From Phycisphaerae bacterium (GTDB lineage Bacteria; Planctomycetota; Phycisphaerae; Sedimentisphaerales; Anaerohalosphaeraceae), in the NCBI GenBank assembly GCA_014859965.1, contig JACZKQ010000169.1, forward strand, positions 1 through 64,000: a stretch of 64,000 bases of DNA, in the 5' to 3' direction. The notes below the pieces were generated by a model. It was not told where the DNA came from, did no database searches, and was given only the letters and a program-made list of their open reading frames with translations. The first letter of the stretch is position 1. Every line of letters begins with the position of its first letter. A program made the translations under genes and the position numbers. Below, piece after piece: positions 24,519-57,457 of the stretch.

Positions 24519-24542
24519 AAACAAGCCTGCATTTTAGGGCTT
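24518..24542 (-). terminator. Weak intrinsic terminator overlapping the stop of the DUF6807 gene
   Basis: A 5-bp stem (AAGCC 24523-24527 with GGCTT 24538-24542) around a 10-base loop is followed on the minus strand by G and five T. It would end the long operon that begins at 33005. The short stem keeps confidence modest. Confidence 0.5.
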
Positions 24543-30600: not shown

Positions 30601-31827
30601 TCAGTTTCTTATGGAAATGGCGGGCGGATTGCCGAAATCCTGCCAGCACCGCTCCGCCTGTTCGGCTGTCATTTTACCGTCATACACATACATCCGGTAG
30701 TTGAAAACGTACTTCTTGCCGGGTTCGAGAACCCAGTCCTTCTCCTGAATTGGACACCAGTTGAAGAAAATGTCTCCGCTGGGCCACAGCCGCATGGGCT
30801 CAGGAAATTCGTGATTGCTCGGATGACTCATGAAAACGATTCCGTTGTCGCCCTTTGATGTGGCGCCGTACGCAATGCACCACCGCGCCCGTGTGCCGTG
30901 CCCGTCCTTGCGCGTCTTGCCTTCATTGGTTAGATAATTGGCAACGCCCTGCTTCCATTCCGCCGTAGCGCGGAACCCGAAACCGCCATAGCGATACGCA
31001 GGAAGCTCCAGCGGGCTGGATGACGCACACTCCTGCGTCGACACAAAATCGACCACCCAAAAGCCCTTGTCCGCCCCGCCGGTGTTCCACACCCGCACAT
31101 CCCACTCTTCGTTGAGGGCAACCTTCTCACCCCCCGGGGCCTTCAAGTCCACGTGCTCCTGAATGGACCGGAACCCTCCGAAGACCGGCCCCTCGGTAGT
31201 ACCGGCGAACTTGACAAACCGCACGGTGCCTTTGCCGTCTGCAATGTTCCAGAAGTCGATGTTCCGCCCCTCGAAACGCGTTTGCGTCCAGGGCATCCAG
31301 AGCCCCATGTGGTGAATGTGATCCGCCGGATGGATGTTCGTCAGTTCCGCTCCCGCCGGCGACCACAGCGGATGAATGAACCCGCCCCGGTTGTAGAGCG
31401 CGCTCTTGCCCGCAGGCGGCGGCACAATCGCATGATTAAACCGCAGCACCTTGGTCTGGCCGACCTGCACGTCCAGGACCTTGTCATCCTGGACAATTTC
31501 CACGCCCCCTCTTCCGCGCCCGCGACCTCTTCGGGTGACCACTTCATAAGTGCGTTTGCCGTCGGCCGCTGTCTTGCCCGTCAGTATCCAGCACAGCCTC
31601 CCCGCATTGGCGTCCACCTGCGAAGCTACGCGCTGCCGCCCCTCGGCCGTAATCTCCACAAGCCCGACATTCTGAGACTCGGCCGTCACCCCGATGGCGT
31701 CCAGCGCCACCCACACCGGCGTATCGACCCGCTCCACACCCCCCGCCTCAACCGTGATCGTCGCCGCCGGTACTGCCGCAGCAAAGCCGAAAAAAATAAG
31801 ATATGCGAGCACTGTAAACAGCTTCAT
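30601..31827 (-). CDS. DUF6807 (PmoA-like) family secreted protein, copy 1
   Basis: 408 residues, start after GGAGGAAA. Sec signal M-K-L-F-T-V-L-A-Y with A-A-V-P-A-A cleavage. The core shows R-G-G-F-I-H-P-L-W-S-P-A-G, then H-P-A-D-H-I-H-H-M-G-L-W near residue 175, the histidine-rich family motif, and F-N-Y-R-M-Y-V-Y-D-G near the end. Residues about 100-106 are an R-G-R-G-R-G-R run. The name PmoA used in some databases does not mean particulate methane monooxygenase. It sits 20 bases after the UroD-like gene. The second copy in the same operon suggests two related glycan substrates or steps. Confidence 0.82.
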   Translation of the reverse strand: MKLFTVLAYLIFFGFAAAVPAATITVEAGGVERVDTPVWVALDAIGVTAESQNVGLVEITAEGRQRVASQVDANAGRLCWILTGKTAADGKRTYEVVTRRGRGRGRGGVEIVQDDKVLDVQVGQTKVLRFNHAIVPPPAGKSALYNRGGFIHPLWSPAGAELTNIHPADHIHHMGLWMPWTQTRFEGRNIDFWNIADGKGTVRFVKFAGTTEGPVFGGFRSIQEHVDLKAPGGEKVALNEEWDVRVWNTGGADKGFWVVDFVSTQECASSSPLELPAYRYGGFGFRATAEWKQGVANYLTNEGKTRKDGHGTRARWCIAYGATSKGDNGIVFMSHPSNHEFPEPMRLWPSGDIFFNWCPIQEKDWVLEPGKKYVFNYRMYVYDGKMTAEQAERCWQDFGNPPAISIRN

Positions 31828-33190: not shown

Positions 33191-34456
33191 TCAATCGCGG
33201 GGGTCGATCGGCTCGCCGGGTTTGACGAAGAGATGGACGAACAGCATGGCGACGGGGTGCAGGATGCCCATGAGCAGGAAGATGGGGACGTAGCCAAAGT
33301 GCTCGATGATGTACCCGGAGGCAAGGCCGGAGATGATGATGCCGCCTACTCCGCCCGCAAAGCCGATGAGGCCGGTGACGGAGCCGACAGCCGCCGGTTT
33401 GAAGCAATCGCCGACGAGGGTGAAGATATTGGCGGACCAGCCGTTGTGGGCGGCATTGGCGAGGCTGATGAGCAGGATCGCGGCCCAGGGCAGGCGCGCG
33501 TAAACGGCGAAGGCCGACAGCGGCATACAGACGGCGCAGGTGAGCATTACGATCTTGCGGGCGTTGCGCGGAGCCCACCCGCGACGGATGAGGAAACCTG
33601 CGGTCCAGCCGGCGAGATTGCCGCCGAGGATCGCCAGGCCGTAAATGACAGGCAGTGTGAGCCCGATTTTCATGATGTCAAACTCCCGGTTCTTTGCCAG
33701 ATAGCTGGGCAGCCAGGCAATGTAGAACCACCAGACGGGGTCGGTGCAGAACTTGCCAACCATGATGCCGAGGGTTTCGCGGTGGGTGAGCAGCCGCGAC
33801 CACCGCAGTTTCGCTGCTTTGGGGGGGTCGACCGAGGGATCATGGAGGCCCATAATGGCCGGACGGCGATAGATGAACGGCCATACGGCAGCGAGCAGGA
33901 AACCCAGGGAGCCCATCAGGACAAACGTAAGACGCCAACTGCCGACATGGATAAGTATCCAGGCGATAATGGGTGGACCCACGACAAGGGCGACGCTGGG
34001 GCCGCTGTTAAAGAGCGACGTGGCAAGCGAGCGCTGGCGGGCGGGAAACCATTCGGCGACAGCCTTGATGGCGGCCGGGAAGTTGCCTGCCGCGACCAGT
34101 CCCATCGCACATTGGGCGACGAAGAGCGTCGGCAATGAGTTGCTCAGACCCGTCAGGCACGTGACCGCCGACCATGCGGCGATGGCGAGGAGGTAGCCGA
34201 AGCGGGCGCCGAGAAAGTCCATCAGTCGGCCGGCCAGAAGAAGCCCAACGGCGTAGCCGGCGCTCACCGCCGACACGATATAGCCGTATTGCTGGTCGCT
34301 GAGGCCGAGGTCCGCCTTGACCGTTGCGGCGACGTTGCCGAGAACGATGCGGTCGAGGTAGTTTACCGTGGTGGCGCAGAAGAGCAGCGCGAGGATGATC
34401 CAGCGGTAATCAGGATACACCTGTCGGTCGCGGCCGCCGGTAACTAAATCTTTCAT
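33191..34456 (-). CDS. MFS transporter, anion:cation symporter (hexuronate/ExuT-like)
   Basis: 421 residues with twelve hydrophobic spans. The N-terminal segment Y-R-W-I-I-L-A-L-L-F-C-A-T-T-V-N-Y-L-D-R is the signature of the ACS family that carries hexuronates, glucarate and similar sugar acids. The loop motif G-R-L-M-D-F-L-G-A-R is the MFS 2-3 loop. Substrate assignment by family is hexuronate or another sugar acid, which fits uptake of oxidised products made in the envelope. The ribosome site is weak. A terminator hairpin 22 bases upstream of its ATG means that expression depends on read-through from the permease gene or on an unseen promoter. Confidence 0.85.
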   Translation of the reverse strand: MKDLVTGGRDRQVYPDYRWIILALLFCATTVNYLDRIVLGNVAATVKADLGLSDQQYGYIVSAVSAGYAVGLLLAGRLMDFLGARFGYLLAIAAWSAVTCLTGLSNSLPTLFVAQCAMGLVAAGNFPAAIKAVAEWFPARQRSLATSLFNSGPSVALVVGPPIIAWILIHVGSWRLTFVLMGSLGFLLAAVWPFIYRRPAIMGLHDPSVDPPKAAKLRWSRLLTHRETLGIMVGKFCTDPVWWFYIAWLPSYLAKNREFDIMKIGLTLPVIYGLAILGGNLAGWTAGFLIRRGWAPRNARKIVMLTCAVCMPLSAFAVYARLPWAAILLISLANAAHNGWSANIFTLVGDCFKPAAVGSVTGLIGFAGGVGGIIISGLASGYIIEHFGYVPIFLLMGILHPVAMLFVHLFVKPGEPIDPRD

Positions 34457-34543: not shown

Positions 34544-36034
34544 CTACTTTCCTGCGACCGGAGGTTTGGGCGCGCCCGCCTCGGGCTCAGAAACCATCGG
34601 TATCACCTGAGGCTCAAGGCCCGCCTTGGCAAGAGCGAAGTAGAGGACTGCGCCTACGATGAAGGCGGCTACCGGCGCGGCGGGGATGTTGGCCAGGCCG
34701 ACCATTGGGGCAATGCCGACGATGAAGCCGACCAGCCATGAGATCCAGCCTGCCGCATTGATACCTGCGCGTGGGCCGGCCCATTTCCTGCCGCTGAGCA
34801 GGTAGTCGACCATCATGGCGCCGCAGACGGGACCGAACGAAGCGCCGATGATGCTGAAGACGCCTGCCGCGTCGCCGGCGAGGCCGGTCACGGCGAGAAT
34901 GACGGCGGCGAGGACACCGATGCCGCACGACACCATGGGCTTGACGTTCGGGAGAGTCGTCTTAAAGCTGTTGGCGGCGATGAAGGACGAGAAGCACGCC
35001 GGGGGGAATGCGGCAATGGCGAGCAGGTACATGAAGACACTGCCGATTTTCGGGCTGCCCATAATGTCGCCCATGAGGCTCGTCGCAGCCAATCCGCCGG
35101 GATCGCCTGCTTTTCCACCGCCGTGCGCGCCGGCGACGATCAAGAGGGCCGCACAGCCGGCGAAGATTGTTGCGCCGGCGATGCCGACGAGGCCGCCCAT
35201 CTGGACATCTTTGGCGTCGCGGTTGTTCATGCCGAAGTCGGCGCCGGCGGCGCCGGCGGTCGCAAAGAAGCCGACGATGTACGTGAGGATCAGGGCGATG
35301 ACGGCAAAACTGCTCAACGGAGCGGCGGCCTTGACCGGCTGTGCCTCGGGTGCACCTTCGACGGCGGCGGCTTTTACTTCCACTGCGGCTCCGGCGTCGA
35401 TCAACTTCTGCGAATCAAAATCGCCCAGGCCTCCGATGGTGGAGAGTACGAGGATGACCAGAATCACCAGCGGGATCAGCGGCAGAAAAGTGGCGACCTT
35501 TGCAACGTACTGGATGCCTTTGAGGCCCATGAAGCCTGCGGCCACGGCCCAGAGGGTCGCAACGACGGCATGCGCGAGAGTGCCCGGGCCCTGGCCGAAC
35601 GGAGCACACAACAGGACGCCGGCAAAGAACGCGTTGACGGCAAGCCAGCCGAACTGCAGGACGCCCATGAGAAAGCCGGGCATGAGGAAGCCGCCCTGGG
35701 CGCCGTAGGTCGACGTGCCGACGATGTAGAGCGGCAGGCCTGATTTCATTCCCAGCATTCCGGGGACCATGTAGAAGAGGAAATGGCAGATGAGCGCGGC
35801 GAAAATCACGCCCAGTATCGCGACGACCAGACCCTGCGACAGGATGCCGCCGGCAAAGGCGCTGTACGGGGTTCCCGGCTGGAGCGAGCGACCCACCGGG
35901 ACCTCGTTCCAGAACACAAACCACAGCATGATGCCGGCGTAGGTTTGTGCGGTGTTCTTGTACCATGGGGCGCGGTTGGCCATGGGGTTGGGTTTGGCCA
36001 TTTTGAGATAGTTTGGCAGTCCGCCGTTACTCAT
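34544..36034 (-). CDS. NCS1/cytosine-permease-like transporter
   Basis: 496 residues from the ATG at 36034, preceded by AGGAGA; the earlier ATG at 36052 overlaps this site. About twelve hydrophobic spans. The N-terminus N-R-A-P-W-Y-K-N-T-A-Q-T-Y-A-G-I-M-L-W resembles the NCS1 opening, and G-A-S-F-G-P-V-C-G-A-M-M-V-D-Y near residue 415 matches the late-span F-G-P-(I/V)-x-G-x-x-x-x-D-Y motif of that family. An Ala/Glu/Pro-rich insert (about 222-246) interrupts the middle loop and is unusual. Such permeases move nucleobases, hydantoins or related small molecules; here a sugar-derived substrate is possible. Confidence 0.68.
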   Translation of the reverse strand: MSNGGLPNYLKMAKPNPMANRAPWYKNTAQTYAGIMLWFVFWNEVPVGRSLQPGTPYSAFAGGILSQGLVVAILGVIFAALICHFLFYMVPGMLGMKSGLPLYIVGTSTYGAQGGFLMPGFLMGVLQFGWLAVNAFFAGVLLCAPFGQGPGTLAHAVVATLWAVAAGFMGLKGIQYVAKVATFLPLIPLVILVILVLSTIGGLGDFDSQKLIDAGAAVEVKAAAVEGAPEAQPVKAAAPLSSFAVIALILTYIVGFFATAGAAGADFGMNNRDAKDVQMGGLVGIAGATIFAGCAALLIVAGAHGGGKAGDPGGLAATSLMGDIMGSPKIGSVFMYLLAIAAFPPACFSSFIAANSFKTTLPNVKPMVSCGIGVLAAVILAVTGLAGDAAGVFSIIGASFGPVCGAMMVDYLLSGRKWAGPRAGINAAGWISWLVGFIVGIAPMVGLANIPAAPVAAFIVGAVLYFALAKAGLEPQVIPMVSEPEAGAPKPPVAGK

Positions 36035-36181: not shown

Positions 36182-37600
36182 TTATACTGAAAAATCGGCT
36201 TTTGTAAAGTTAATTTTTTTGCCTTCTTTGATGGCGTCGTTGGCCCTCAGGACCGCTACGGCGGTTTCGTAGGCGACCTCGCCGGGGCAGGTCAATTTGG
36301 CTTTGCCGCGAATCGCGTCGAAGAAATTCAGCAGGTGCGGCGCGTGGACGGCCAGGTCGAGTTTTGTCAGCAGCGGGAAGAAATGCGGCGGCGAAATGCT
36401 GCCGCCGACCTTTAACAAGGCTTCTTCCTGCTGCTTCTTTTCGGCGGCTTCGTTCCTGATGCCGACAAGTTTCAGACCCTCGCACTTCGAATACCTGTTA
36501 TTCACCTCTTTGTCCGCCCATACATAGTCCTCGCGAAACAGCCAGCCGTTGTTCCAGTCGCCGCCGAATTCAGAGATGAGCAGCGTCGCCACGTCGCCCA
36601 TGAACGTCTCGTAGTACCCGCCGTAGGTTCCATACCCGGAGGTATTGAGCACCTGGTAGAACGCGCGGACACTGCCGACGTTGCTGCTGTATTCGTAGAC
36701 CGCCATGACGTTCTCATGCTGCTGATATTTATAATAGTCTTGGCCTCCTACGGCGATCACCGAGGCGGGATGTACATCGCCGAGAAACCAACTGAAGATG
36801 TCGATTTGGTGCGAACCGAGGTCGGCCAGGGGCCCGCCGCCAAACTTTTCATACCACCGCCAGTTGACAAGTTCGTGCATGGAGCCGTACCCATGCTTCT
36901 TAAGTATCGCATCCTCGACAATCGCATCGCCGGTCGGCAAAGAAATGTCGTGCCCGTTTACGGGACGATTCCACTGGGCGCTGGCGTTCTTGATCTTGCC
37001 GGCAAGCCGGTGCTTGCGGAGAATGTCTGCCGCGGCAATATAGCGGGGATTGCTTCTCCGCTGATGGCCGATCTGAAGCAGTTTCTTTGTCGCCTGCGAC
37101 GTCTTGACCATTTCCTTTGCGGTTTCCAGATTGTTGGACATTTCCTTTTCGCAGTACACGTGAAGCCCGGCCTTCATGCACGCGATTGAAACGGGCGCGT
37201 GCACCCAGTCGGGCGTGGCGACAATCGCCGCGTCCAGATCCTTCTCCTCAGCGAGCAATTCCTCAAAGCTTTCATACGCGTTGACCGTATGTTTGAAAGC
37301 GCGCAGGCGTTTCCTGCGAAGATCCCGCTTGTAAGGTGAAATATCACAGACCGCCTTAAAGCAAATGTTCTCCTTCTGGTCCATGCGGCTCTCGCGGCTC
37401 AACATCGCGTCGTCCACGAGCCGGGAACACTGTTCGCCGAGGCCGATAAGGGCCACATTGATCGGGTCCTTCTTTTCCGAATCGCCCTGTCCAAAGGCGC
37501 TGGGGCCTGCGAAAAGCCCCGCACCGAGTGCGGCGGTGGCGTGCATAAACGTGCGGCGGTCCATGTCCTGGCGTTGGTTTTCTTTTCGGCGTGCACTCAT
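36182..37600 (-). CDS. Tat-exported Gfo/Idh/MocA oxidoreductase, E-K-E variant
   Basis: 472 residues, start after AAAGGGG. Tat-type signal M-D-R-R-T-F-M-H (13-20). Nucleotide site G-L-G-E-Q-C near 53-58; the third glycine is Cys, so the loop is atypical. The catalytic segment is Y-C-E-K-E-M-S-N (151-153 is E-K-E), replacing the normal proline with glutamate. It also has L-Q-I-G-H-Q-R-R-S-N-P-R-Y and D-L-G-S-H-Q-I-D-I-F-S-W-F-L. These features are shared with the paralogue at 37894-39255, so the pair forms its own subgroup. It lies behind a terminator and must have its own promoter, but only a TTGACA (37677-37672) was found. Confidence 0.85.
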   Translation of the reverse strand: MSARRKENQRQDMDRRTFMHATAALGAGLFAGPSAFGQGDSEKKDPINVALIGLGEQCSRLVDDAMLSRESRMDQKENICFKAVCDISPYKRDLRRKRLRAFKHTVNAYESFEELLAEEKDLDAAIVATPDWVHAPVSIACMKAGLHVYCEKEMSNNLETAKEMVKTSQATKKLLQIGHQRRSNPRYIAAADILRKHRLAGKIKNASAQWNRPVNGHDISLPTGDAIVEDAILKKHGYGSMHELVNWRWYEKFGGGPLADLGSHQIDIFSWFLGDVHPASVIAVGGQDYYKYQQHENVMAVYEYSSNVGSVRAFYQVLNTSGYGTYGGYYETFMGDVATLLISEFGGDWNNGWLFREDYVWADKEVNNRYSKCEGLKLVGIRNEAAEKKQQEEALLKVGGSISPPHFFPLLTKLDLAVHAPHLLNFFDAIRGKAKLTCPGEVAYETAVAVLRANDAIKEGKKINFTKADFSV

Positions 37601-37893: not shown

Positions 37894-39255
37894 CTACACG
37901 TGAAATTCGTCGGGCTTGAACGTGAGCCTCTTGCCCGCTTCGACGGCCTCGTTGCATTTGAGGACCATGACGGCCGTCTCGTAGCCGATTTCGCCGGGGC
38001 AATTGAGCTTGGCCTTGCCGCGAACGGAATCGAAGAAGTTGACCAGATGCGGCTGATGGAACGGCACGTTCATTTCGACGGGAATCGTGTACGCGGCGGC
38101 AGGCACCGAACTGCGAACGTCGGTAGCGCCGTGGTCATCGCTGGCGGCCGGCTTCTTGACCTCTTCCTTGGCGATGATACCCGCCTTGACCCACTTTTCC
38201 CAGTTCTCTTCGGGCACGCTGCTTTCGCGGTAGACGGCGCCGCGGGCCGCCGCCTCCGAAATATCCAGCGTACCTTCGTCGCCCATGAATATCTCAAAGT
38301 AGCCGCCGTTGCTGTTCGTGGTGATCGTCTGATACGATGCGCGGGCCGGCCCGACGGGCGTGTCGAACTCATAGATGGCGATCACATGATCGTACCACTC
38401 ATGGTTCTTCCAGTAATCGATGCCGCCGCTGGCGATGATCGACTTGGGCTGCGCCTGGAGGAACCATGCATAAATATCGATCTGATGCGAACCGAGGTCG
38501 ACGATGGGGCCGCCGCCGAGACCCTTGTACCAGCGCCAGTTGCGGAACGTCGTCATGTCCTTGAAGCCGTACTTATCGAGCGTCGCCTGGGGAATCTCGG
38601 AGCCCTTGGGCCAGCCGAGGTCTTCACAGGCGGCCTTGCTGCGATTCCACTGCCCGTTAACGGTTGTGATGCGGCCGAGCATGTTGGCTTCCTTGATGAT
38701 CTTGTCATAGCAGTGCCGATACCGCGGATTGCTTCGACGCTGGTGACCGATCTGCAGAAGTTTGCCTGTCTTCTTGGCTGTTTCGACCATCTTCTTTGCG
38801 CCTTCCAGCGTGTTGGACATTTCCTTCTCGCAGTACACATGAAGGCCTTTTTCCATGGAGGCGCAGGCATGCTCGGAATGCCAGAAGTCGGGCGTGGCGA
38901 CGATGACGGCGTCCAAACCCTTTTCGGTGTCGAGCATTTCTTTGTAGTCGACATAAGCGGTTCCGGCGTGCCCGAAGCCCTTATAGGCATTCAGGGTACG
39001 GGAGACGCGCTTCAGGTTCTGGTCTTCCCAGATGTCGCAGACGGCTTTGAAACAGACGCCTGACTCCTTGCCGAGTTTCAGGACGGCGTTCATCAGGACC
39101 TGTCCCTGGGCGCCGGCGCCCAGGAGAGCTACGTTAAGCTGGTCTTTCGAGCCGGCGGCAGCACCCTGCCCGAACGCATTCGGGGCGATGAACAAACCAG
39201 CGCCGATGGCGGCCGTGCCGCGCATGAAACTTCTTCTGTCGAATTGATTTTTCAT
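37894..39255 (-). CDS. Tat-exported Gfo/Idh/MocA oxidoreductase, E-K-E variant, translationally coupled
   Basis: 453 residues from the ATG at 39255; this ATG overlaps the TGA of the upstream fusion gene (ATGA), and GGAG lies 12 bases ahead. Tat signal F-D-R-R-S-F-M-R at 5-12. Nucleotide site G-A-G-A-Q-G at 46-51. Catalytic segment Y-C-E-K-E-M-S-N (143-145 is E-K-E), as in the paralogue at 36182. Substrate motif D-L-G-S-H-Q-I-D-I-Y-A-W-F-L. Near residue 345 an E-E-V-K-K-P-A-A-S-D-D-H insert is not present in the other paralogues. The coupling implies fixed stoichiometry with the isomerase-DUF1080 fusion, hence probably successive steps on one sugar. Confidence 0.88.
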   Translation of the reverse strand: MKNQFDRRSFMRGTAAIGAGLFIAPNAFGQGAAAGSKDQLNVALLGAGAQGQVLMNAVLKLGKESGVCFKAVCDIWEDQNLKRVSRTLNAYKGFGHAGTAYVDYKEMLDTEKGLDAVIVATPDFWHSEHACASMEKGLHVYCEKEMSNTLEGAKKMVETAKKTGKLLQIGHQRRSNPRYRHCYDKIIKEANMLGRITTVNGQWNRSKAACEDLGWPKGSEIPQATLDKYGFKDMTTFRNWRWYKGLGGGPIVDLGSHQIDIYAWFLQAQPKSIIASGGIDYWKNHEWYDHVIAIYEFDTPVGPARASYQTITTNSNGGYFEIFMGDEGTLDISEAAARGAVYRESSVPEENWEKWVKAGIIAKEEVKKPAASDDHGATDVRSSVPAAAYTIPVEMNVPFHQPHLVNFFDSVRGKAKLNCPGEIGYETAVMVLKCNEAVEAGKRLTFKPDEFHV

Positions 39256-40718
39256 TGTCTTCTGGATCTCCACTGTGACATATCGATTGTTCTAATTTTC
39301 ATGTTGCGGTACCAAACGGGATTGCCATGATCCTGGAAACCAATAGCGCCGGATCGGGCCATATCCTTGTATGCGGTTTTGAATTTGTTCTTGATGCCGT
39401 CGGGATTCTTGCCGGCCTCGGTCCAATCGTCGAGGTTCATATTGATGATCGGCTCGTTGTTCATCGTGACCCTCAGGCGGCTGCCCATGGCCATAACGGT
39501 CAAGTGGTTCCACTCGCCGGCCTTTTTCACCGCATTTTTCTCGGGAGCGAGGCAGTCATAGATGGCGCCGCAACTGTGCTTGCCGGGTTCGCCGCCGAAG
39601 CTGTCGTAAATCTGGATTTCAATACCGGTCTGGACGCAATCCTTAATGTCGGAAGTCCGAATGAACACGCCGCTGTTGGTCTTCGGATCGACCTTGAACT
39701 CGAGATCGAGAATGAAGTCGCCGTAGCTTTCCTTCGTCCAGATGTCGCCGCCGCCATTACGGGCGAGAACACCGTCCGCAAAAGTCCAGGCGCCTTCCTT
39801 CAACGTGGCGTTGGAAAGGTCAGCGGCGATCAGATCCTGCCATCCGCCGGGCTTCAGTTCGTTGCCCATCTTTGTGAAGAAGGCGACGCACTGGCGGATT
39901 TCCGGGACGGAGTTGAGCCAGTTGTGTTCGTACTCGATCGAGAAGACGCCGCGGAAGTTCTGGCGATGCAGTTCCTGGAGGAGCGGCGTGGCGCGGTTGG
40001 CGCCCTGGCCCCAGGGCACGTCGTGGCCATCCTGAAGTTCCTTGAAATGCAGGCTGATGATGCGGCCTTCGAGCTTCTTGAGGCACTCGACAGGATCGAG
40101 GCCGGAGCGGACCCAGTGACCGGTGTCGGCACAGGCGCCGATCCGCTCGCTGCGTCCTTCGACGGCCTTGAGGACCGTAGCGGGGTCCCAGTAGTGCGAG
40201 GGCTTCGGATGGTTGTGAATCGCGACATTGATCTCGTACTCGTCGCAAAGCTTTTCGATCGTATCGAAGGCATCGGCCGGCGGCTCGGAGACGATGGTGC
40301 GGACACCCATTTCCTTGGCCCATTCGAAGACCTTGCGGCTTTCCGCCTCGTTCTTCGAGAGTCCGACGACGCCGTAGTTGATCAGGCGGACGCCGGCATC
40401 GCGAAGCTTGGCCTTCATGAGTTCGCGGGCCTCGGCGGACATGTTGTGGTCGGTCCGGGCGTCGCTGTCGGCCATAAGCTTCTGGCCGGGGTAGGCTTCG
40501 ATCCAGTCCAGGCCCAGCGAGGCGGTCTTGTCGACGGCCTCATAGAACGTGAAATGATTGAACGTGTAAGCCTGCATGCCCAGACGCCAGCCGTCATAGG
40601 CGTCGGTTGGCGGATGGTAACCACCCATCCGGCGCTGCTGCTGGGCGAACGACGGCGTAAGACAGCCGGCCGTCACGACAGCCGCCACAAGCACAAAGAG
40701 CGCTGTTCTTCGATACAT
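39252..40718 (-). CDS. Exported fusion: sugar isomerase/epimerase-like TIM barrel plus DUF1080 (3-keto-disaccharide hydrolase)
   Basis: 488 residues from the ATG at 40718, eight bases after AGGAG. An N-terminal signal with a lipobox-like T-A-G-C (16-19) suggests a lipoprotein or Sec substrate. Residues about 43-290 are a xylose-isomerase-like barrel with metal ligands in I-V-S-E-P, A-D-T-G-H-W, L-H-F-K-E and S-I-E-Y-E-H. Residues about 295-482 are DUF1080, a concanavalin-like sandwich: F-I-L-D-L-E-F-K-V, N-S-G-V-F-I-R, E-I-Q-I-Y-D, H-L-T-V and the closing G-x-I-G-F-Q-D-H-G-N-P-V-W-Y-R-N. In known keto-glycoside pathways these two functions are separate proteins. The gene is coupled to the oxidoreductase downstream. 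Confidence 0.85.
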   Translation of the reverse strand: MYRRTALFVLVAAVVTAGCLTPSFAQQQRRMGGYHPPTDAYDGWRLGMQAYTFNHFTFYEAVDKTASLGLDWIEAYPGQKLMADSDARTDHNMSAEARELMKAKLRDAGVRLINYGVVGLSKNEAESRKVFEWAKEMGVRTIVSEPPADAFDTIEKLCDEYEINVAIHNHPKPSHYWDPATVLKAVEGRSERIGACADTGHWVRSGLDPVECLKKLEGRIISLHFKELQDGHDVPWGQGANRATPLLQELHRQNFRGVFSIEYEHNWLNSVPEIRQCVAFFTKMGNELKPGGWQDLIAADLSNATLKEGAWTFADGVLARNGGGDIWTKESYGDFILDLEFKVDPKTNSGVFIRTSDIKDCVQTGIEIQIYDSFGGEPGKHSCGAIYDCLAPEKNAVKKAGEWNHLTVMAMGSRLRVTMNNEPIINMNLDDWTEAGKNPDGIKNKFKTAYKDMARSGAIGFQDHGNPVWYRNMKIRTIDMSQWRSRRQ

Positions 40719-40789
40719 AACCATTTCTCCTAATTGATTGTTGACTCCACAGGGCATGGCATGCCCCTATAAGGTCATAGATTCAAGGC

Positions 40790-42148
40790 TCAGATTTCCC
40801 AGCCTTTTCTGTACAGCTTGGAGACGTACTGATTTGCCTCAGGCACATTGGTGGAACGCATATTCTTGCTGTCCCACTCGACCCGCTTGCCCGTGCGTAC
40901 GGCCAGATTGCCGACCAACAGCGCCTCGGTGAACGGGCCTGCGTACCAGAAGCCGGACCTGGCGTTTTCGGGCTTGCCGTCCTTGCACGCCTGGATCCAT
41001 TCCTGATGATGATCGCCGGATCGCTCCAGCAACTGCGGCGGGCGTCCGCCGTATTCTTTCATCTTGATTTCGGGGACGATTCTAGGGGGGCCCGCATGGC
41101 TCGGCCCGAGCAGCATGCCCTTGGTGCCGATGAACAAAATACCGTTGTCGCCCAGCCGGCGCGCCTCTTCGAAACCCTCGGGGCGCGGGGGGAGTTTGCC
41201 GCCGTCATACCACTTCATTGTGACGGCCGGCCGGTCGCCTTTGGCCGCAAAATAGTAGGTAATGATGGACCACACCGGAAATGTCTCATTGTTGACCGGG
41301 CTGCTCTCGGCTTCCACGGCAATCGGGGCGTCGAGTTCCAGTGCGAAGAAGGCAGGATCGGCGTTGTGCACGGCCATATCGCCCAAAGCGCCGCAGCCGT
41401 AATCAAACCATCCGCGCCATTTGCGCGGCACATAATCCGGATGATACGGCCTTACGGGGGCAGGGCCCAGCCAGTTGTCCCAGTCCAGTCCCGCCGGCAC
41501 GGGGGGCGTATCCGTGGGCCGACCCACGCCCTGCGGCCACCAGGCCCGACCGCCGGGGACGCCGGCCCTGTCGGTCCACACGTGAACCTCCGTGACCGTG
41601 CCGATTGCACCGTCTTTGATGAACTCATAATACAGACGCAGGCCCTCGCCTGCATGGCCCTGATTACCCATCTGGGTCACCACACCTGTTTTTGCCGCGA
41701 CCTTCATCATCTCGCGGGCTTCCCAGATAGTGTGCGCCATGGGCTTTTCACAGTAGACGTGTTTGCCCATCTTCATGGCGCCAATCGCCGCCGGGGCATG
41801 GACGTGATCAGGCGTGCCGATCGTGACCGCGTCGATGCGTTTGCCTTCTTTGTCGAGCATCTTCCGGTAATCGGTGTAGATTGTTGCGTTGGGGAACTTC
41901 TTGTATGTTCCGCCTGCCCTGCCGGCATCGACATCGCACAATGCGACGATGTTTTCATTTCGGCAGGCATCCACGGAGGCTGCGCCGCGGCCGCCGACGC
42001 CGATACCGGCGACGTTGAGCTTGTCGCTGGGGGCCACATGGCCGGCGCCGCCGATGACGTGGCGTGCTACAACAGTGAATCCAAATGCCGCAGCGGCAGT
42101 GCCCATGAACTGACGCCGACTGACGACGATTTTTCTCTTTTCTTTCAT
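40790..42148 (-). CDS. Tat-exported Gfo/Idh/MocA oxidoreductase, pair member A
   Basis: 452 residues, start after AGAAGGA. Tat signal S-R-R-Q-F-M at 10-15. Nucleotide site G-I-G-V-G-G-R-G around 48-55. Catalytic E-K-P at 134-136 (H-V-Y-C-E-K-P-M-A-H-T). Residues near 155-165 carry Q-M-G-N-Q-G-H, and the substrate region has W-F-D-Y-G-C-G-A-L-G-D-M-A-V-H, in which a His replaces the usual H-x-x-D order. It is close in length and motif order to the neighbour at 42199, so the two come from a local duplication. They may form a heteromer or act on two positions of a sugar. The gap to the next gene downstream is 71 bases. Confidence 0.87.
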   Translation of the reverse strand: MKEKRKIVVSRRQFMGTAAAAFGFTVVARHVIGGAGHVAPSDKLNVAGIGVGGRGAASVDACRNENIVALCDVDAGRAGGTYKKFPNATIYTDYRKMLDKEGKRIDAVTIGTPDHVHAPAAIGAMKMGKHVYCEKPMAHTIWEAREMMKVAAKTGVVTQMGNQGHAGEGLRLYYEFIKDGAIGTVTEVHVWTDRAGVPGGRAWWPQGVGRPTDTPPVPAGLDWDNWLGPAPVRPYHPDYVPRKWRGWFDYGCGALGDMAVHNADPAFFALELDAPIAVEAESSPVNNETFPVWSIITYYFAAKGDRPAVTMKWYDGGKLPPRPEGFEEARRLGDNGILFIGTKGMLLGPSHAGPPRIVPEIKMKEYGGRPPQLLERSGDHHQEWIQACKDGKPENARSGFWYAGPFTEALLVGNLAVRTGKRVEWDSKNMRSTNVPEANQYVSKLYRKGWEI

Positions 42149-42198: not shown

Positions 42199-43569
42199 TC
42201 AGACCTCGTCAAGTCCGAAACCCTTGCGCGCCGGCAGATTGACGTACTCGTTCGCCACGTCATTGTTCGTAACTTTCATGTTCCTGCCGTCCCAGAGGAG
42301 CTTGGCGCCGACGATTTCCCGTCGAAGCGAAAGGTTGCCCATGACCACCATCTCTGTCAACGGACCTGAATAATCGAAGTGCGAGCAGGCCGCCTCGAGT
42401 TTGCCTTTGCAGGCATCTACCCAGTTCTGCTCGTGGCCGCCCTCGACGCGCGGCAGCGTCTTTGCCGGACGCTTATATTCCTTCATCAGGGCTTCGGGAA
42501 TCAGCCGCGGGCTGTCGCCGGTTTCACCGCACCGCAACAGGCCCTTATCGCCGACAAAGAGCACGTTGCTACTGGCCTGCTCCAGGCTGCGTCCTTCTTC
42601 GAGCATCGCCGGACGTTCAGGCTTGCGGCCGCCGTCGTACCATACCAGTTTCACCGCCGGCATGCCTTCGCGGGCCGGGAATTCATACGTTACGGTCGAC
42701 GCCTTCGGGAACGTTTCGTCGTTCACCTCGGTCGCCTCGGCCTGGACACTCGTCGGATATTTCAGTTTCAAAGCAGCGAACACCGGATCGCACACGTGGC
42801 ACGCCATGTCCGCAAGCGCCCCGCCTCCAAAATCCCACCAGCCGCGCCAACTGAACGGCAGATAGCAGGGATGGTACGGACGCAGCGGCGAACCCGCCAG
42901 CCACAGATCCCAGTCGAGTTCGGCGGGCACGGGCGGCGTATCCTTCGGCCGATCGAGGCCCTGCGGCCATATGGGCCTGTTCGTCCACGCGTGGACCTCT
43001 CGAACATCGCCGATTGCCCCATCCCAGATCCACTCGCAGATCAGGCGAACGCCTTCGCCCGAGCGACCCTGGTTGCCCATCTGGGTCTTGACCTTATACT
43101 TGCGCGCCGCCTCCGTCAGCATACGTGCCTCATAGACCGTGCGCGTCAGCGGCTTCTGTACATAAACGTGTTTGCCGCGCTTCATGGCCGCCATCGCCGC
43201 AGGGGCATGAACGTGATCCGGCGCGGCGATGATCACCGCCTCGATCTCTTTCTGCTTCTCCAGCATCTGCCGGAAGTCTTTCCACCTTCTGGCATTCGGA
43301 AAACGCTCGTACGTTTCCTTGGCGCGCCTGTCGTCCACATCGCAAAGACCGACAATATTCTCATTGCGGCAGGCATTGGTGTTGGCCGATCCCATTCCGC
43401 CGGCGCCGATCGTCGCAATGTTCAGCTTTTCACTCGGGGGCGTGTTGCCCGGCCCACCCAGAACATGTCGCGGGACAATCATGAAGGCGGCGACTCCGCC
43501 CGCCCCGGAGGCGAGGAACTGCCGCCTGGAAAGGCTGTTGCCTTTAGCGGTAATTTTCTGATTCGCCAT
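42199..43569 (-). CDS. Tat-exported Gfo/Idh/MocA oxidoreductase, pair member B
   Basis: 456 residues from the ATG at 43569, after GAGGAA; a GTG five codons earlier overlaps this site. Tat signal S-R-R-Q-F-L at 14-19. Nucleotide site G-A-G-G-M-G at 55-60. Catalytic segment Y-V-Q-K-P-L-T-R (138-140 is Q-K-P): Glu replaced by Gln, lysine kept. The substrate-domain motif is W-D-F-G-G-G-A-L-A-D-M-A-C-H. It shares the motif Q-M-G-N-Q-G-(H/R) and the overall layout with member A, which retains E-K-P, so the pair may have split roles. It is the first gene of the operon that ends at 37709; no clear promoter was found in the 179 bases upstream. Confidence 0.87.
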   Translation of the reverse strand: MANQKITAKGNSLSRRQFLASGAGGVAAFMIVPRHVLGGPGNTPPSEKLNIATIGAGGMGSANTNACRNENIVGLCDVDDRRAKETYERFPNARRWKDFRQMLEKQKEIEAVIIAAPDHVHAPAAMAAMKRGKHVYVQKPLTRTVYEARMLTEAARKYKVKTQMGNQGRSGEGVRLICEWIWDGAIGDVREVHAWTNRPIWPQGLDRPKDTPPVPAELDWDLWLAGSPLRPYHPCYLPFSWRGWWDFGGGALADMACHVCDPVFAALKLKYPTSVQAEATEVNDETFPKASTVTYEFPAREGMPAVKLVWYDGGRKPERPAMLEEGRSLEQASSNVLFVGDKGLLRCGETGDSPRLIPEALMKEYKRPAKTLPRVEGGHEQNWVDACKGKLEAACSHFDYSGPLTEMVVMGNLSLRREIVGAKLLWDGRNMKVTNNDVANEYVNLPARKGFGLDEV

Positions 43570-43748: not shown

Positions 43749-44783
43749 TTATTCCACCTCGACGAGCCAGATATTACGGTATTGAACAGGATCGCCGTGA
43801 TCCTGCAGATATATGCCGCCTGGCTTTAACTCGTCGGCGTCCAGTCCCCCCCCGGTCGGGCCCGGGATTTCCAATTTGTCGTGTATTGTAACACCGTTGT
43901 GGATGACAGTCAAGCGGGCGTTGTCGGTTTTCTTTTGGCTGTTATCGGACTGCGGGGCCATGAAGGCGATGTCGTAGGTCTGCCACTGCCCGGGCGGGGC
44001 GCACATGTTGACGCGGGGACGGGCGACTCTGTAGATGCCGCCGCACTCATTGTCAAGGCCTTCGAGGCCGTAACTGTCGAGGACCTGCAGTTCATAGCGG
44101 CCCTGCAGGTAAACGCCGCTGTTGCCGCGGGCCTGCCCGCGCTTCGTCGGCATATAAGGAGTGCGGAACTCCACATGAAGTTTGTAATTGGTGAACGTAC
44201 GATGCGTGACGATGCCGCCTTTGGCGACCTGCATCGCGCCGTCTACAATCGGCCAGCTAATGGGGCCGTCCTTGTCGGGATGTCGCCATTGCTTGGTGTC
44301 TTTGCCGTCGAACAGTACGATGGCGCCTTTCGGGGGCTTCTGGCCAAGGGACGGCGACAGGCGAACGACGCGGCGCATGTCAAAGCTGCCGCCGCCTTCG
44401 CCGCTGTAGCGGCCTTTGAAGGTCGTGCCGTCGAAGCGGCCTTCGCCCCGGACGTTGTGGCCTGCGACGCCGGCGAATGTCACCTTGCCGCCGTCAAGAG
44501 TTGCTTCGAGGACGCCGGCTGGTTCCAGCCCCATGTCGAATGCGTCAAGGATGTTAATGCGGTAGCTGTTGTCGCCGAGGCCGATTGCCTGTGCGGCAAA
44601 CTCGGTGGTGAATCCGTCGTCGCCGGTGTAGGTCCCCACCCAGTCGCCTATAAAGGCGTCGCCGGTGGCGGCGGTGAGATCGCCTGCGGTCTGCGTTTTC
44701 ATCTGCGGCGTGCAGGAGCAGAGCGCTGCGCACAGCACCACGGCGATCAGAGAACGCGTCCATGTTCTTGCCTGTGTATTCAT
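43749..44783 (-). CDS. DUF1080 lipoprotein with extra N-terminal beta domain
   Basis: 344 residues from the ATG at 44783, after AAAGGA. The signal ends in L-C-S-C, a plausible lipobox (Cys24). Residues about 45-140 (I-G-D-W-V-G-T-Y-T-G-D-D-G-F then G-E-G-R-F-D-G-T-T-F-K-G-R-Y) form a small beta domain not usual in DUF1080 proteins. Residues about 155-342 are DUF1080: I-V-L-F-D-G-K-D-T-K-Q-W, V-E-F-R-T-P-Y, N-S-G-V-Y-L-Q-G-R-Y-E-L-Q-V-L-D-S and G-G-I-Y-L-Q-D-H-G-D-P-V-Q-Y-R-N. It probably acts on keto-glycosides at the membrane surface. It is the last gene of the 54751 operon. Confidence 0.82.
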   Translation of the reverse strand: MNTQARTWTRSLIAVVLCAALCSCTPQMKTQTAGDLTAATGDAFIGDWVGTYTGDDGFTTEFAAQAIGLGDNSYRINILDAFDMGLEPAGVLEATLDGGKVTFAGVAGHNVRGEGRFDGTTFKGRYSGEGGGSFDMRRVVRLSPSLGQKPPKGAIVLFDGKDTKQWRHPDKDGPISWPIVDGAMQVAKGGIVTHRTFTNYKLHVEFRTPYMPTKRGQARGNSGVYLQGRYELQVLDSYGLEGLDNECGGIYRVARPRVNMCAPPGQWQTYDIAFMAPQSDNSQKKTDNARLTVIHNGVTIHDKLEIPGPTGGGLDADELKPGGIYLQDHGDPVQYRNIWLVEVE

Positions 44784-44797
44784 TGCGAGATTTCCTT

Positions 44798-47698
44798 TCA
44801 ATTTGTCTCGGTCACATCCGCGGCGGCCGATTTGCCGTCCATGCGGTCGATGGTTTCCTGGGCCTGGCGTCGCAGGACGTCGTTGGTTGTGAGGTCGAGG
44901 ACCTTTGCGAGTGCGGCTTTGGCCAACTGCGGGCTTTGTTCGGCAATACCTGAGGCGATGCCGATGACGGCGGCCTGAGCTTCCGGCGCGAGGGTCTTCT
45001 CCTGCATGTATTCTACGGCGAGGTCGAGGGCGGCGACTTCCTTGACGGTCGCAATACCGGCCAGGACCATACGTTTTTCGGTGATGCCTGCGGCAATATC
45101 CATTGCCTTGCGGAAGCGTGCGATGGTGCCGGTTGGATTCGTTTTGGCGTCGAGACTCGCCAACGCGACGTAGCCGCGGAGGGCGAGGATTCTCTGTTTG
45201 GGTTCGCCTGCATTGGTGGCGATTTCGAGGAGCGCGTCGGCTGGTTTGGAATTGGGCCAGCCGCTTATGGCTTTGATCGCGGATTCTTTGACGGCGGCGT
45301 TGTCATCCTTGAGTCCCATGTACAGGGCAAGAAACGCGTTATCTTCCCCAATACGTCCAAGAACGCTCAGCAGCGACGCCTTCACCGTCGGATCCGCGGC
45401 CTTTTCGAATGCCGCTATCACAGGCGCGGTTTTCCGCGTCTTGTCTTCAATCCTGGCTGCGGCAGCGGCGGCCGTACGCTCCGCCTCGCTCCGCACGGTG
45501 CTGTTTTGCACTCCCGCCAGAAGCCCAACCAGCGTCTCCAGTTCGTCCGGGCCCGCCGCCGTCTGGAGGGTTTTGTAGCTTTCGAGCTGGACCTTGGCCG
45601 ACGGATCGACGGCGGTCTTGAGCAGCGTCTGCATCGCCCCCTGAATATTGCGCTGGCTGATGCTGCGTATCAGTTCGACTTTGGCCGCTTCCGGGGCGCT
45701 GTCGATGGTTTGCAGAATCGTCGCATCCACCTCGGGGTCGCGCATACTGTAGAGGCTCTCGCGGGCGGCGAGCCGCTCGGCGCCAATGGCGCTTCCCGCG
45801 GCTTCGGCGAGCAGCGCAACCGTGGTCTTGTCGCCCAGCGACGCCAGGGCTTTGTAAGCTGCAACGCGCACGTCCGCGATATCGCTTGCTACAGAGGCGA
45901 CGACCGCGTCCTTTGCAACGGCGCTGCCGCGGTTGGCCAGGGCGGTGATCAACTGAACCTGTCCTGCGGGGGCGAGATTGGACAGTTGGCCGGCCAGCGA
46001 TTGAAGCTCGGCATCCTCCCGGATTTCGCCGACCAGGCCGAAGGCGATTTCCTGCATCGCCGGGTCGCCGGCCTTGATGACTTCGAGAATAATTTCGCCT
46101 GCCTTGTCGGGGATCGAATAGACCGTTCCCCGTAGGGCGGCGCTGCGAATGACCTGCGGTATGTTCGAACTGTACAACTCGCGGTAGATCATGAGCGCCT
46201 CTTCGTTTTGGCCGGCATCTATGAGACCGTCGGCACAGTTGAGATAGGCGTCAAGGACGAGCATCTGCAGGTCGCCGGTAGTGGCGTCTTTGGCCTTGGC
46301 CAGGGCGGCCCGGGCTTCTGCGCCGGCGATCTGGCCCAAGGCGGCGACCGCGGCGGAAGCGACTTCGGCATCCGCGTCAGCAATGAGTTGGGCCAGTATG
46401 GGGACGCTTTTCGCGTCGCCGCGCAGGCCGAGCGTGCTGATGACGCCGACCTTTTCGACGCCTTTGGTTCTGCCGAGCGTGTCGCGCAGGACGACATCGA
46501 CGCCTTCACCGGGTATCCGTTCCAGGGCGTATCGCGCCATGTCGGACGTTTCGGGGTCGACCAGCATGCCGGCCAAAACCTGGGCCGACAACTCCGAACC
46601 GATAATGCTCAGATTGCTGCACACGAACTGTTTGCTTGCAAGGGTTGCCTGGGATTGAAGGAACTCCAGCAGTTGCTTCTCAACGATGCGGAGATGATCT
46701 GTTCCTTCAATCCCTCGGATAAAATCCGAGAGTTGTGTCAATGCCTCCCTGCTCTTGCCGTAATCGTATGCTGAAACCTCGGTCAGGATATCCTTCAGCG
46801 CCTCGGTATCCACTGCCGCCGGCGGCAAGCCCTGCGGAAGCGGTATTGGGGTGGTGTCAACGTCAAGATCGCCCAGCGCAAACTGCAGGCCGTCAAGATA
46901 ATGCTGCAGCAGCGGCGTCCACCACGTGAGATCGTTATTGTGCCCCAGGGAACCGTAGAACAGCCGTCCCTTGCCCACACTCTTGACCCACGTGATGCCG
47001 ACGTCCTTATTCTTGTGCTTGCCGCCGTCGATGCCGGCGGTCCTCGCATCGCTCATGTCGAGGCTCATCAGCACACGCGCCTTCTGCCGCGAATAAAGCG
47101 GCGGGTCGGTAAGATAAATCTCATCCTTGACCTTGAAGCCCTTGCCCGCAAAGACCTTCAGGAGCGGGTGGTCCGGATCGTCGAGCTTGACGGCGACCGT
47201 ATCTCCGGCATTCCAGGGGTGGCCCGTGAACTTGCCGCCCATGATCTCCTGCATTTCGGGCCAATCGTAAAAATTGTCGCTGGCTGCGTGGATGCCCATG
47301 ACGCCCTTGCCGCCCTTGAGGAAATCCATGATGCTCGTTTGGATAACCGGGTCTTCCTGTTTGAGCTTAAGATGCGTCGTGTTGTTAAGGACCAGCGCAT
47401 CGAACTTATGCAGGTTTTCCGGCTTGAGCATGTTGATGTCATAGCTGACGGTGGCTTTGTAAGCGCCGGTCTTTTCACCCATTGCGACGAGGGCCTGGTC
47501 CCAGTAGGGAATGGAGGAGTGCTTAAAACCCTTGCACAGGCTGAAAACCAGCACCGTCCGAGGTTTGGCCGGTTGCCGGGTGGCCTTTGCCGGGGCCGCC
47601 GCCTTGATTTTCGCGATCTCCTCATCGGACACCGCGAAGCAGGAGCTGCAGAATACCATCAGCAGCACCGCCATGCACGTTTTCTTAACCCAATTCAT
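44798..47698 (-). CDS. Exported ThuA domain fused to a long HEAT-repeat solenoid
   Basis: 966 residues from the ATG at 47698, seven bases after AGGAGA. Residues 1-22 are a signal (V-L-L-M-V-F-C-S-S-C-F-A), possibly a lipobox at Cys20. The ThuA domain covers about 48-295, with V-L-V-F-S-L-C-K-G-F-K-H, F-D-A-L-V-L-N-N-T-T, V-M-G-I-H-A-A and H-P-W-N-A-G-D, very like the single-domain protein at 28275. Residues about 320-960 are helical repeats of 30-35 residues with Ala/Leu-rich HEAT spacing (A-V-A-A-L-G-Q-I-A, A-Y-K-A-L-A-S-L-G-D). Large planctomycete dehydrogenase-type proteins also carry HEAT, but no haem C-x-x-C-H is present. The solenoid could be a docking scaffold. Confidence 0.85.
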   Translation of the reverse strand: MNWVKKTCMAVLLMVFCSSCFAVSDEEIAKIKAAAPAKATRQPAKPRTVLVFSLCKGFKHSSIPYWDQALVAMGEKTGAYKATVSYDINMLKPENLHKFDALVLNNTTHLKLKQEDPVIQTSIMDFLKGGKGVMGIHAASDNFYDWPEMQEIMGGKFTGHPWNAGDTVAVKLDDPDHPLLKVFAGKGFKVKDEIYLTDPPLYSRQKARVLMSLDMSDARTAGIDGGKHKNKDVGITWVKSVGKGRLFYGSLGHNNDLTWWTPLLQHYLDGLQFALGDLDVDTTPIPLPQGLPPAAVDTEALKDILTEVSAYDYGKSREALTQLSDFIRGIEGTDHLRIVEKQLLEFLQSQATLASKQFVCSNLSIIGSELSAQVLAGMLVDPETSDMARYALERIPGEGVDVVLRDTLGRTKGVEKVGVISTLGLRGDAKSVPILAQLIADADAEVASAAVAALGQIAGAEARAALAKAKDATTGDLQMLVLDAYLNCADGLIDAGQNEEALMIYRELYSSNIPQVIRSAALRGTVYSIPDKAGEIILEVIKAGDPAMQEIAFGLVGEIREDAELQSLAGQLSNLAPAGQVQLITALANRGSAVAKDAVVASVASDIADVRVAAYKALASLGDKTTVALLAEAAGSAIGAERLAARESLYSMRDPEVDATILQTIDSAPEAAKVELIRSISQRNIQGAMQTLLKTAVDPSAKVQLESYKTLQTAAGPDELETLVGLLAGVQNSTVRSEAERTAAAAAARIEDKTRKTAPVIAAFEKAADPTVKASLLSVLGRIGEDNAFLALYMGLKDDNAAVKESAIKAISGWPNSKPADALLEIATNAGEPKQRILALRGYVALASLDAKTNPTGTIARFRKAMDIAAGITEKRMVLAGIATVKEVAALDLAVEYMQEKTLAPEAQAAVIGIASGIAEQSPQLAKAALAKVLDLTTNDVLRRQAQETIDRMDGKSAAADVTETN

Positions 47699-47735
47699 TC
47701 GATCTCTCCTGTTCTGATTTATGGTAACTTCTGAT

Positions 47736-47756
47736 CGGGCCGTCGTTACCGGCCCG
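47736..47756 (-). other. Intercistronic hairpin after the DUF1080-DUF1080-ThuA gene
   Basis: A 7-bp GC stem (47736-47742 with 47750-47756) and 7-base loop overlap the last codons and stop of the gene at 47746. No T-run follows, so RNA processing or stability is more likely than termination. Confidence 0.45.
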
Positions 47757-49587: not shown

Positions 49588-49597
49588 CGATCCGCTC

Positions 49598-50917
49598 CTA
49601 AAGTTTCCATGGACTGCGCATCGGGCGCGACAGCATGCGATCCGCCGCCGGATCGTCGATGAACCGTTCGCGTTTCCAGTCCCATTTGAGTTTCTTTTCC
49701 AGCCGTGTGGCAATGTCGCTCAACTGGCACAGCGTATCGGCGGCGACGGCGTCCTCGATCCCGCAGACGGTTGCCGCACGCGTCCGCATGCAGTCGAGCA
49801 GATTCCGCTGGTGATGCGTGCTCTTGTAGAGGCGGGTGTCGTTGGGGCCGAACTCGGTTGTGAGCAGGCTTTGCGGGTGCGCATTGATGCCGCCGCGGTC
49901 GACGTGAACCCACCCTTCCGTACCCTCAAATGCGGTGCCGTGGTCGCTCGTGCGGCCATAGCGCTTCTTCCATTCCTCAGGGAACGGATACCCCGTAAAG
50001 TTCATCCGAACCCCGCTCTCGAACTGCACCTTCACGTCCCAGTTCAGAGCCGTATTCGCCACGCCCTCAGTTGGAAAGACGCCGGCGCCTTTGATCTCAA
50101 GGTTGCAGGCGGTTTTGTCCCCGCCGCCCCAGAGGGCGATATCCAGCGGATGAACACCCCAGCCGGCGATGAACCCCAGGGCATAATCGGAGATGAACCA
50201 CCAGAGGCTGTTGGAGGAGCGATCCTTGGTGTAAGGCGTCGCCGGGGCCGGCCCGAGCCAGAAGTCGTAATTGAGCCATTCGGGGACCGGGACCACTTCG
50301 GGCGAACCGCCCGCGCTGCTGCCGGGACTCCAGACGTTGATGGTTTTTAATTCGCCGATCTTACCGTTACGGACCAGCTCGCAGGCCTGCAAAAATTGCC
50401 GGTCCGACCGCTGCTGGGTGCCGAACTGAAAAACGGTGCCGTAGCGTTTACAGGCGGCGCGAAGTGCCTGGTCCTGAGCCATGCTCAGGCCCATCGGCTT
50501 TTCGAGATACACATCCTTTTTCGCCCTCGCCGCCGCAATGGCATGCAGCACATGCCAGTGATCGCAACTGGCGATCGATACCCCGTCGATATCGTCGCGC
50601 GCCAGCAATTCCCGGAAGTCGCCATATGCCGCACAGCCCGTATCGCCGTAGTGCGCGTCCACAAGCGCCTTGCGATCCGCCAAGACGTTGCTCTTGACGT
50701 CACACACCGCCACAACCCGTGCATCGTTCTGGGCCATGAAGCCCCGCATGACGCCCGTGCCCTGCGGCCCGACGCCGATGGCGCCCATGGCTATTTTGTT
50801 GCTCGGAGCGATGGCGCCGCCCTGCCCAAGCACCGAAGACGGCACCACATAGGGAAAGGCCAACGCGCCGACGGATGCCTTCAGGAACGTGCGACGCTTC
50901 ACTGTTTGATTCGCCAT
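49598..50917 (-). CDS. Tat-exported Gfo/Idh/MocA oxidoreductase
   Basis: 439 residues from the ATG at 50917, after AAAGGG. Tat signal V-K-R-R-T-F-L at 6-12. Nucleotide site G-V-G-P-Q-G at 48-53. Catalytic E-K-P at 139-141 (V-Y-L-E-K-P-M-G-L). Substrate motif W-G-V-H-P-L-D-I-A-L-W-G-G-G-D. The C-terminus ends S-R-P-M-R-S-P-W-K-L. It differs from the neighbours in lacking the D-T-G-P segment after the substrate motif. It is third of three consecutive oxidoreductases in the operon and lies 10 bases before the DUF1080-DUF1080-ThuA gene. Confidence 0.88.
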   Translation of the reverse strand: MANQTVKRRTFLKASVGALAFPYVVPSSVLGQGGAIAPSNKIAMGAIGVGPQGTGVMRGFMAQNDARVVAVCDVKSNVLADRKALVDAHYGDTGCAAYGDFRELLARDDIDGVSIASCDHWHVLHAIAAARAKKDVYLEKPMGLSMAQDQALRAACKRYGTVFQFGTQQRSDRQFLQACELVRNGKIGELKTINVWSPGSSAGGSPEVVPVPEWLNYDFWLGPAPATPYTKDRSSNSLWWFISDYALGFIAGWGVHPLDIALWGGGDKTACNLEIKGAGVFPTEGVANTALNWDVKVQFESGVRMNFTGYPFPEEWKKRYGRTSDHGTAFEGTEGWVHVDRGGINAHPQSLLTTEFGPNDTRLYKSTHHQRNLLDCMRTRAATVCGIEDAVAADTLCQLSDIATRLEKKLKWDWKRERFIDDPAADRMLSRPMRSPWKL

Positions 50918-57378: not shown

Positions 57379-57457
57379 CGGACACTCCTTCCGGCGCAAC
57401 AGGGACCGGCGCCGCCCATCGACAAGCGCCGGTCCCACCATTATTCGCACGCAGGAA

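Follow-up and report, generated by a model that had tools for sequence, protein, structure and literature searches.

We describe a protein of a Phycisphaerae bacterium (order Sedimentisphaerales) in which a xylose-isomerase-like TIM barrel is joined to a DUF1080 domain, and which we judge likely to be an exported bifunctional 3-keto-glycoside eliminase-hydratase. Its gene lies on the minus strand (39252–40718) of the window, the whole 64,000-nucleotide stretch that was analysed (contig JACZKQ010000169.1 of assembly GCA_014859965.1, positions 1 to 64,000). The protein would probably break sugar linkages by oxidation, elimination and the addition of water, unlike ordinary hydrolysis. The fused domain arrangement and its breadth appear to be new, and the chemistry and pathway are known already; open-licence papers on DUF1080 and related terms yielded no report of the fusion.

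Domains and predicted active sites

The reading frame runs from an ATG at 40718 to a TGA at 39254–39252, encodes 488 amino acids with no internal stops and is preceded by a Shine–Dalgarno sequence, AGGAGA (40726–40731). A hydrophobic N terminus, with both a lipobox-like VTAGC and an A-x-A-like site, makes the protein look exported; the predicted signal covers residues 1–25 (40644–40718), and homologues have similar hydrophobic starts. The barrel follows (residues 42–289, 39852–40595; PF01261 match over residues 62–280, E = 3e-18, 66.8 bits against a cut-off of 31.1), and then the DUF1080, or 3-keto-disaccharide hydrolase, domain (residues 291–488, 39255–39848; PF06439 match over residues 307–476, E = 1e-41, 143.6 bits against a cut-off of 26.8). 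The stop codon shares two bases with the start codon of G1, a Gfo/Idh/MocA gene with a putative twin-arginine translocation (Tat)-type export signal, in an ATGA overlap (39252–39255). Sequence and Pfam matches agree with the first-pass annotation of this DNA, which had described a single exported polypeptide, barrel before DUF1080, that overlaps such a gene. Structure prediction of both domains with AlphaFold (AF2) gave a confident model (predicted local distance difference test score, pLDDT, 92.3; predicted template modelling score, pTM, 0.88) with an eight-strand (beta/alpha)8 barrel. The closest solved chains to the barrel are the structural-genomics entries 3p6l, 4kw2 and 3lmz, of which 3p6l is 46% identical with a template modelling score of 0.90 (normalised by target).

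The residues of the barrel point to a lyase site. AtOGE of Agrobacterium (8BVK) was annotated as a sugar phosphate isomerase but is a Mn2+-dependent beta-eliminase of 3-keto-O-glucosides, in which H-x-H, D, H and E residues are the metal ligands and H134 is the essential base (PMC10628242). In a phmmer alignment, H168-N169-H170 (40209–40217; putative metal ligand and catalytic base), D198 (40125–40127) and H224 (40047–40049) of the fusion pair with H132-N133-H134, D163 and H189 of AtOGE. The pairwise alignment stops short of E262 (39933–39935), which lies just after strand 8 at the position expected for AtOGE E233; E262 and E264, both after that strand, are invariant in 33 fusions. In the model, H168, D198 and H224 cap strands 5, 6 and 7 as their counterparts do in AtOGE, and E262 closes strand 8, presumably again like its AtOGE counterpart. 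Each of the 79 barrels compared shows the HxH...D...H-x-K pattern. Of 30 PF01261 loci compared within this genome, some of them in rows that are in the wrong frame and uninformative, just two, the fusion and a paralogue 47% identical to it, carry His where AtOGE has H132, and in most of the others this strand-5 ligand position is Glu. More generally, the 'sugar phosphate isomerase' barrels AtOGE, AtHYD, LgdB1 and LgdB2 are beta-eliminases or hydratases (PMC10628242, PMC7676230).

For the DUF1080 domain, fold matches include 3imm, 3s5q, 8v31, 8tda and 8rr2. The best functionally named ones are, by their PDB titles, the 3-keto-2-hydroxy-glucal hydratases 8v31 and 8tda and the eliminase/hydratases 8rr2 and 9fbe, which share the PF06439 fold and the position of the catalytic His of QDHG; they are stand-alone proteins, unlike the fusion, and are about 20–24% identical to its domain by structure alignment. 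The motif Q462-D-H464-G lies at 39324–39335. In 9fbe, Asn replaces the QDHG His of 8rr2, a substitution that we take from the sequences to be the H275N variant of the Bacteroides thetaiotaomicron eliminase/hydratase, reported to be hydration-deficient (PMC13273386); H464 would then be the counterpart of H275. H464, E367, Q369 and the N-S-G of residues 348–350 are invariant in the 33 fusions. The QDHG histidine is lost or shifted in both DUF1080 domains of TIM-DUF-DUF relatives (L014, L015, L025 and L028), and the motif is likewise altered in DUF-TIM relatives, so the conclusion about H464 is limited to the single-DUF form.

Recurrence of the fusion and shuffling of its modules

The same domain order, proposed earlier as something to look for in other Planctomycetota, does recur. 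A one-frame, full-length match over both domains is found in about 40 of the 98 Sedimentisphaerales genomes sampled (a manual count of 40 from the genome-by-genome match table). Phylum-wide, 116 of 392 genomes have some match, and among the matches listed those of full length fall within Sedimentisphaerales only. Full-length homologues in public genomes have 41–73% identity (best segment) and are mainly from Phycisphaerae/Sedimentisphaerales, and others occur in metagenome-assembled genomes (MAGs) labelled Caldithrix (Calditrichota), KSB1 and Verrucomicrobia, all three being binned contigs. Every one of the 33 aligned full-length homologues matches both Pfam families. The full fusion is absent from all records of the plasmid collection searched.

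Other architectures include TIM-DUF-DUF (L014), DUF-TIM-DUF (L084), ThuA-DUF-TIM (L040) and, in the same genome as the window, ThuA-TIM (L167); ThuA, DUF1080 and barrel modules have therefore been shuffled repeatedly. In a barrel tree that leaves out the window sequence itself, DUF-TIM forms make up their own clade and TIM-DUF forms fall into two, with the deep forks open; given this split, one simple fusion event was rejected. The ThuA-TIM protein (L167:4684–6381, contig C129) joins a ThuA domain to a barrel that is 45% identical to that of the window. Fusions of the forms ThuA-DUF1080-barrel and ThuA-DUF1080 were seen in other planctomycetes (L040:6099–8765, L043, L045 and L046), and in the cluster under study a single minus-strand frame at 47749–49713 holds two DUF1080 domains and one ThuA domain, modules of the same pathway.

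DUF1080 is overrepresented in Planctomycetota (PMC5673643), and the 5.28-Mb host draft genome (199 contigs), with 34 PF06439 and 36 PF01261 matches, shows a strong expansion. Little is known of the function of DUF1080 in this phylum. The conserved fusion links the uncharacterised 'sugar isomerase' family of the 3p6l type to an elimination/hydration pathway, and the findings suggest that Sedimentisphaerales routinely use periplasmic oxidation–elimination when they degrade glycans. We raise more tentatively, as possible but less probable than the function proposed for the fusion itself, a lineage-wide set of non-hydrolytic envelope glycosidases built from shuffled ThuA, DUF1080 and lyase-barrel modules, in which the fusion passes the glycal between its sites. 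If so, the fusion and the exported Gfo enzymes would act as a dispersed GH4-like periplasmic glycosidase that hands over a reactive 2-hydroxy-3-keto-glycal.

Known counterparts, competing readings and proposed reactions

The earlier statement that known pathways keep these steps on separate proteins holds for the published systems (PMC10628242, PMC7676230) and for unfused Bacteroidota loci. AtOGE shares with the fusion a TIM barrel with H-x-H, D and H on the same strands, and its Glu has a candidate counterpart in E262, but it stands alone in an operon that hydrates with a second barrel, AtHYD, instead of DUF1080. The levoglucosan pathway of Bacillus smithii (LgdA-B1-B2-C) likewise proceeds by oxidation, elimination, hydration and reduction with Gfo and 'isomerase' proteins, but uses four separate proteins with neither DUF1080 nor a fusion. 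In Parabacteroides distasonis (locus L168), a full-length barrel with 45% identity to that of the fusion (the sequence is that of 3p6l, BDI_1903) adjoins a DUF1080 protein and a Gfo enzyme that scores 854 bits with BT_2158_fam (NF058561), the glycoside 3-dehydrogenase model, above its equivalog cut-off of 750 bits; unlike the planctomycete protein this cassette is unfused, in the order DUF1080-Gfo-barrel, and we found no reported activity for it. Draconibacterium and Prolixibacteraceae have separate genes in the order Gfo dehydrogenase, exported barrel, DUF1080. The BT2159–BT2156 operon of B. thetaiotaomicron has the same enzyme families, a periplasmic dehydrogenase and a BT2158-type Gfo beside DUF1080 and barrel. 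The fusion loci similarly place a Gfo 3-dehydrogenase relative next to both domains, but there the domains are fused, and the window adds Gfo genes that score under the BT_2158 cut-off. BT2156 is, by elimination, presumably the isomerase-like protein of the operon, since structure 3osd is BT2157. BT2157 is the DUF1080 protein (3osd; 8tda, whose PDB title reads 3-keto-2-hydroxy-glucal-hydratase). The operon enzymes are described as a sugar phosphate isomerase, a glycosyl hydrolase and two oxidoreductases, and to cleave glucosinolates BT2158 needs only one of BT2156 and BT2157 beside it (PMC12385236, PMC10734470); cleavage can therefore be carried out by either family. What other phyla make as separate partners, the planctomycete has merged into one protein.

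Several points weigh against an eliminase-hydratase with this division of labour. The sequence link between the barrel and AtOGE is marginal (E = 0.008 with a single sequence, 0.003 with a profile), and the barrel is not assigned to the AtOGE type on that basis; the fold also resembles epimerases and IolE, and we found no measured activity for the 3p6l/4kw2-type barrel family. The DUF1080 sequence is nearer to the uncharacterised 3imm and 3s5q than to the characterised enzymes. The second 'isomerase' barrel is the hydratase in Agrobacterium tumefaciens and B. smithii, so the roles of the two domains could be reversed. Finally, the two Gfo/Idh/MocA proteins encoded upstream of the fusion, G3 (476 bits) and G4 (569 bits), match BT_2158_fam over their full length but under its cut-off, and are relatives rather than members of that family.

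The first-pass annotation had DUF1080 cleaving the keto-glycoside and the barrel isomerising the product. A reading of this kind, in which DUF1080 alone cleaves and the barrel isomerises or epimerises the freed keto-sugar, we now consider improbable. The family annotation (sugar phosphate isomerase/epimerase), the likeness of the fold to UlaE and tagatose 3-epimerase and weak NCBIfam matches to ribulose-5-phosphate 3-epimerase speak for an isomerising barrel, but the top NCBIfam match is the dehydratase IolE, and all such matches are far under cut-off. The barrel also has His, not Glu, as its strand-5 ligand, together with the HxH base, as in AtOGE. This signature, and the fact that characterised barrels of such pathways catalyse elimination or hydration (PMC10628242, PMC7676230), make an isomerase role for the barrel improbable; on sequence and model it is probably better read as an eliminase (or hydratase). 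Some elimination can be kept for DUF1080, to judge from PDB titles and one report (PMC13273386), but as the sole cleaver it was not sustained, and it is better read as a hydratase.

A barrel acting as sole enzyme, anchored to the glycan by DUF1080 as a carbohydrate-binding module, is about equally unlikely: DUF1080 overlaps carbohydrate-binding module family CBM66 (PMC5673643) and the exact QDHG is not kept in TIM-DUF-DUF and DUF-TIM relatives, but the residues named above are invariant in the 33 fusions, and H464 matches the residue altered in the hydration-deficient variant (PMC13273386). Weak matches of the barrel to IolE (with IolE 3cny in the profile search) and of the Gfo proteins to IolG would fit a cyclitol module, in which a Gfo enzyme oxidises inositol and an IolE-like barrel dehydrates inosose. 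This is very unlikely, as the proteins are predicted to be exported, DUF1080 forms part of the same protein as the barrel, the gene run shows neither kinase nor aldolase partners and orthologues adjoin glycoside 3-dehydrogenases. In a draft of 199 contigs one might suspect that mis-assembly, or read-through by chance, has joined two genes; the probability of this is negligible, and we rule it out because the fusion turns up in about 40 of the 98 Sedimentisphaerales genomes sampled, besides the Calditrichota and KSB1 MAGs.

The fusion, its site residues, the predicted fold, the gene order and the unfused Bacteroidota counterpart were observed here; the reactions that follow are inferred, as are the substrate, which domain does what and channelling, if there is any. 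A Tat-exported Gfo/Idh enzyme, most likely G3 or G4, would use bound NAD(P) to oxidise C3 of the glycoside. In the barrel, loaded with metal through H168, D198, H224 and E262, the 3-keto group would be polarised while H170 takes the C2 proton, and the aglycone would depart by beta-elimination, leaving a 2-hydroxy-3-keto-glycal. DUF1080 would then add water through H464 to give the 3-keto-sugar, with elimination of the other anomer as a possible second activity of the domain. Lastly one of the Gfo/Idh enzymes, plausibly G1, which may be co-translated with the fusion, would reduce the keto-sugar and regenerate the cofactor. Of the compact envelope module for 3-keto-glycosides proposed in the first-pass annotation, the module itself is supported; isomerisation by the barrel is not, and oxidation by the overlapping Gfo and cleavage by DUF1080 alone are the less likely readings. 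The fusion predicts one specific, assayable reaction and points to residues for mutation.

Oxidoreductase partners and gene neighbourhood

The fusion is the fifth gene of a nine-gene minus-strand run, with intergenic gaps, in order, of 11, 179, 50, 71, −4, 326, 147 and 87 nt. The run opens with a ThuA domain with HEAT repeats (44798–47701) and a DUF1080 protein carrying QDHG (43749–44786), followed by the glycoside 3-dehydrogenase relatives G4 (42199–43569) and G3 (40790–42148; 8tdf, E = 1.5e-101). Downstream of the fusion are G1 (37894–39255, 453 amino acids), a second Gfo/Idh/MocA gene, G2, whose product is 47% identical to G1 (36182–37567), a permease-like gene (34544–36034; weak allantoin-permease match, homologues in many related loci) and a galactonate-type major facilitator superfamily transporter gene (33191–34456).

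G1 starts at an ATG at 39255, stops at 37894 and matches PF01408 with 65.3 bits (cut-off 24). The GxG, EK and DxGxH residues are present, with K144, D253 and H257 invariant, and the arginine pair of its Tat-like DRRSFMR is invariant in 15 aligned sequences, with a Pfam TAT_signal score of 16.6 bits, below the cut-off of 22.7. G1 and G2 match BT_2158_fam with 88 and 77 bits, over the N-terminal half only, and G1 was rejected as a BT_2158-type 3-dehydrogenase (27% identity over 300 amino acids). As maker of the keto-glycoside, the upstream BT_2158-like pair is likelier than the oxidoreductase overlapping the fusion, G1 being only a distant relative of that family. G3 and G4 are the best 3-dehydrogenase candidates; for G1 we favour a reductase, because a Gfo enzyme carries out the final reduction in A. 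tumefaciens and B. smithii.

Across loci, a BT_2158-like Gfo gene lies directly upstream of the fusion in 46 of 57, and a G1-type gene follows it in 37 of 56, with a DUF1080 protein next in six more. G1 and barrel co-occur over 98 genomes (57/1/12/28; P = 5e-14, without correction for relatedness). Only the window and its closest relatives, L001 and L002, retain the ATGA overlap, and conserved coupling was rejected as a defining trait; the other loci with G1 next have positive gaps, commonly of 16–33 nt.

A GC-rich hairpin of 15 pairs with a T tail follows the permease gene (34511–34478, minus strand) and is a likely terminator, judged by its sequence; promoter and terminator scans were otherwise near chance. 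Elsewhere in the window, two minus-strand genes for DUF6807 proteins (24537–25766 and 30604–31827) each adjoin a Gfo/Idh/MocA gene, and a glycoside hydrolase family 29 (GH29) alpha-L-fucosidase gene about 15 kb away (55978–57450, minus strand) is the sole hint of a fucosylated substrate.

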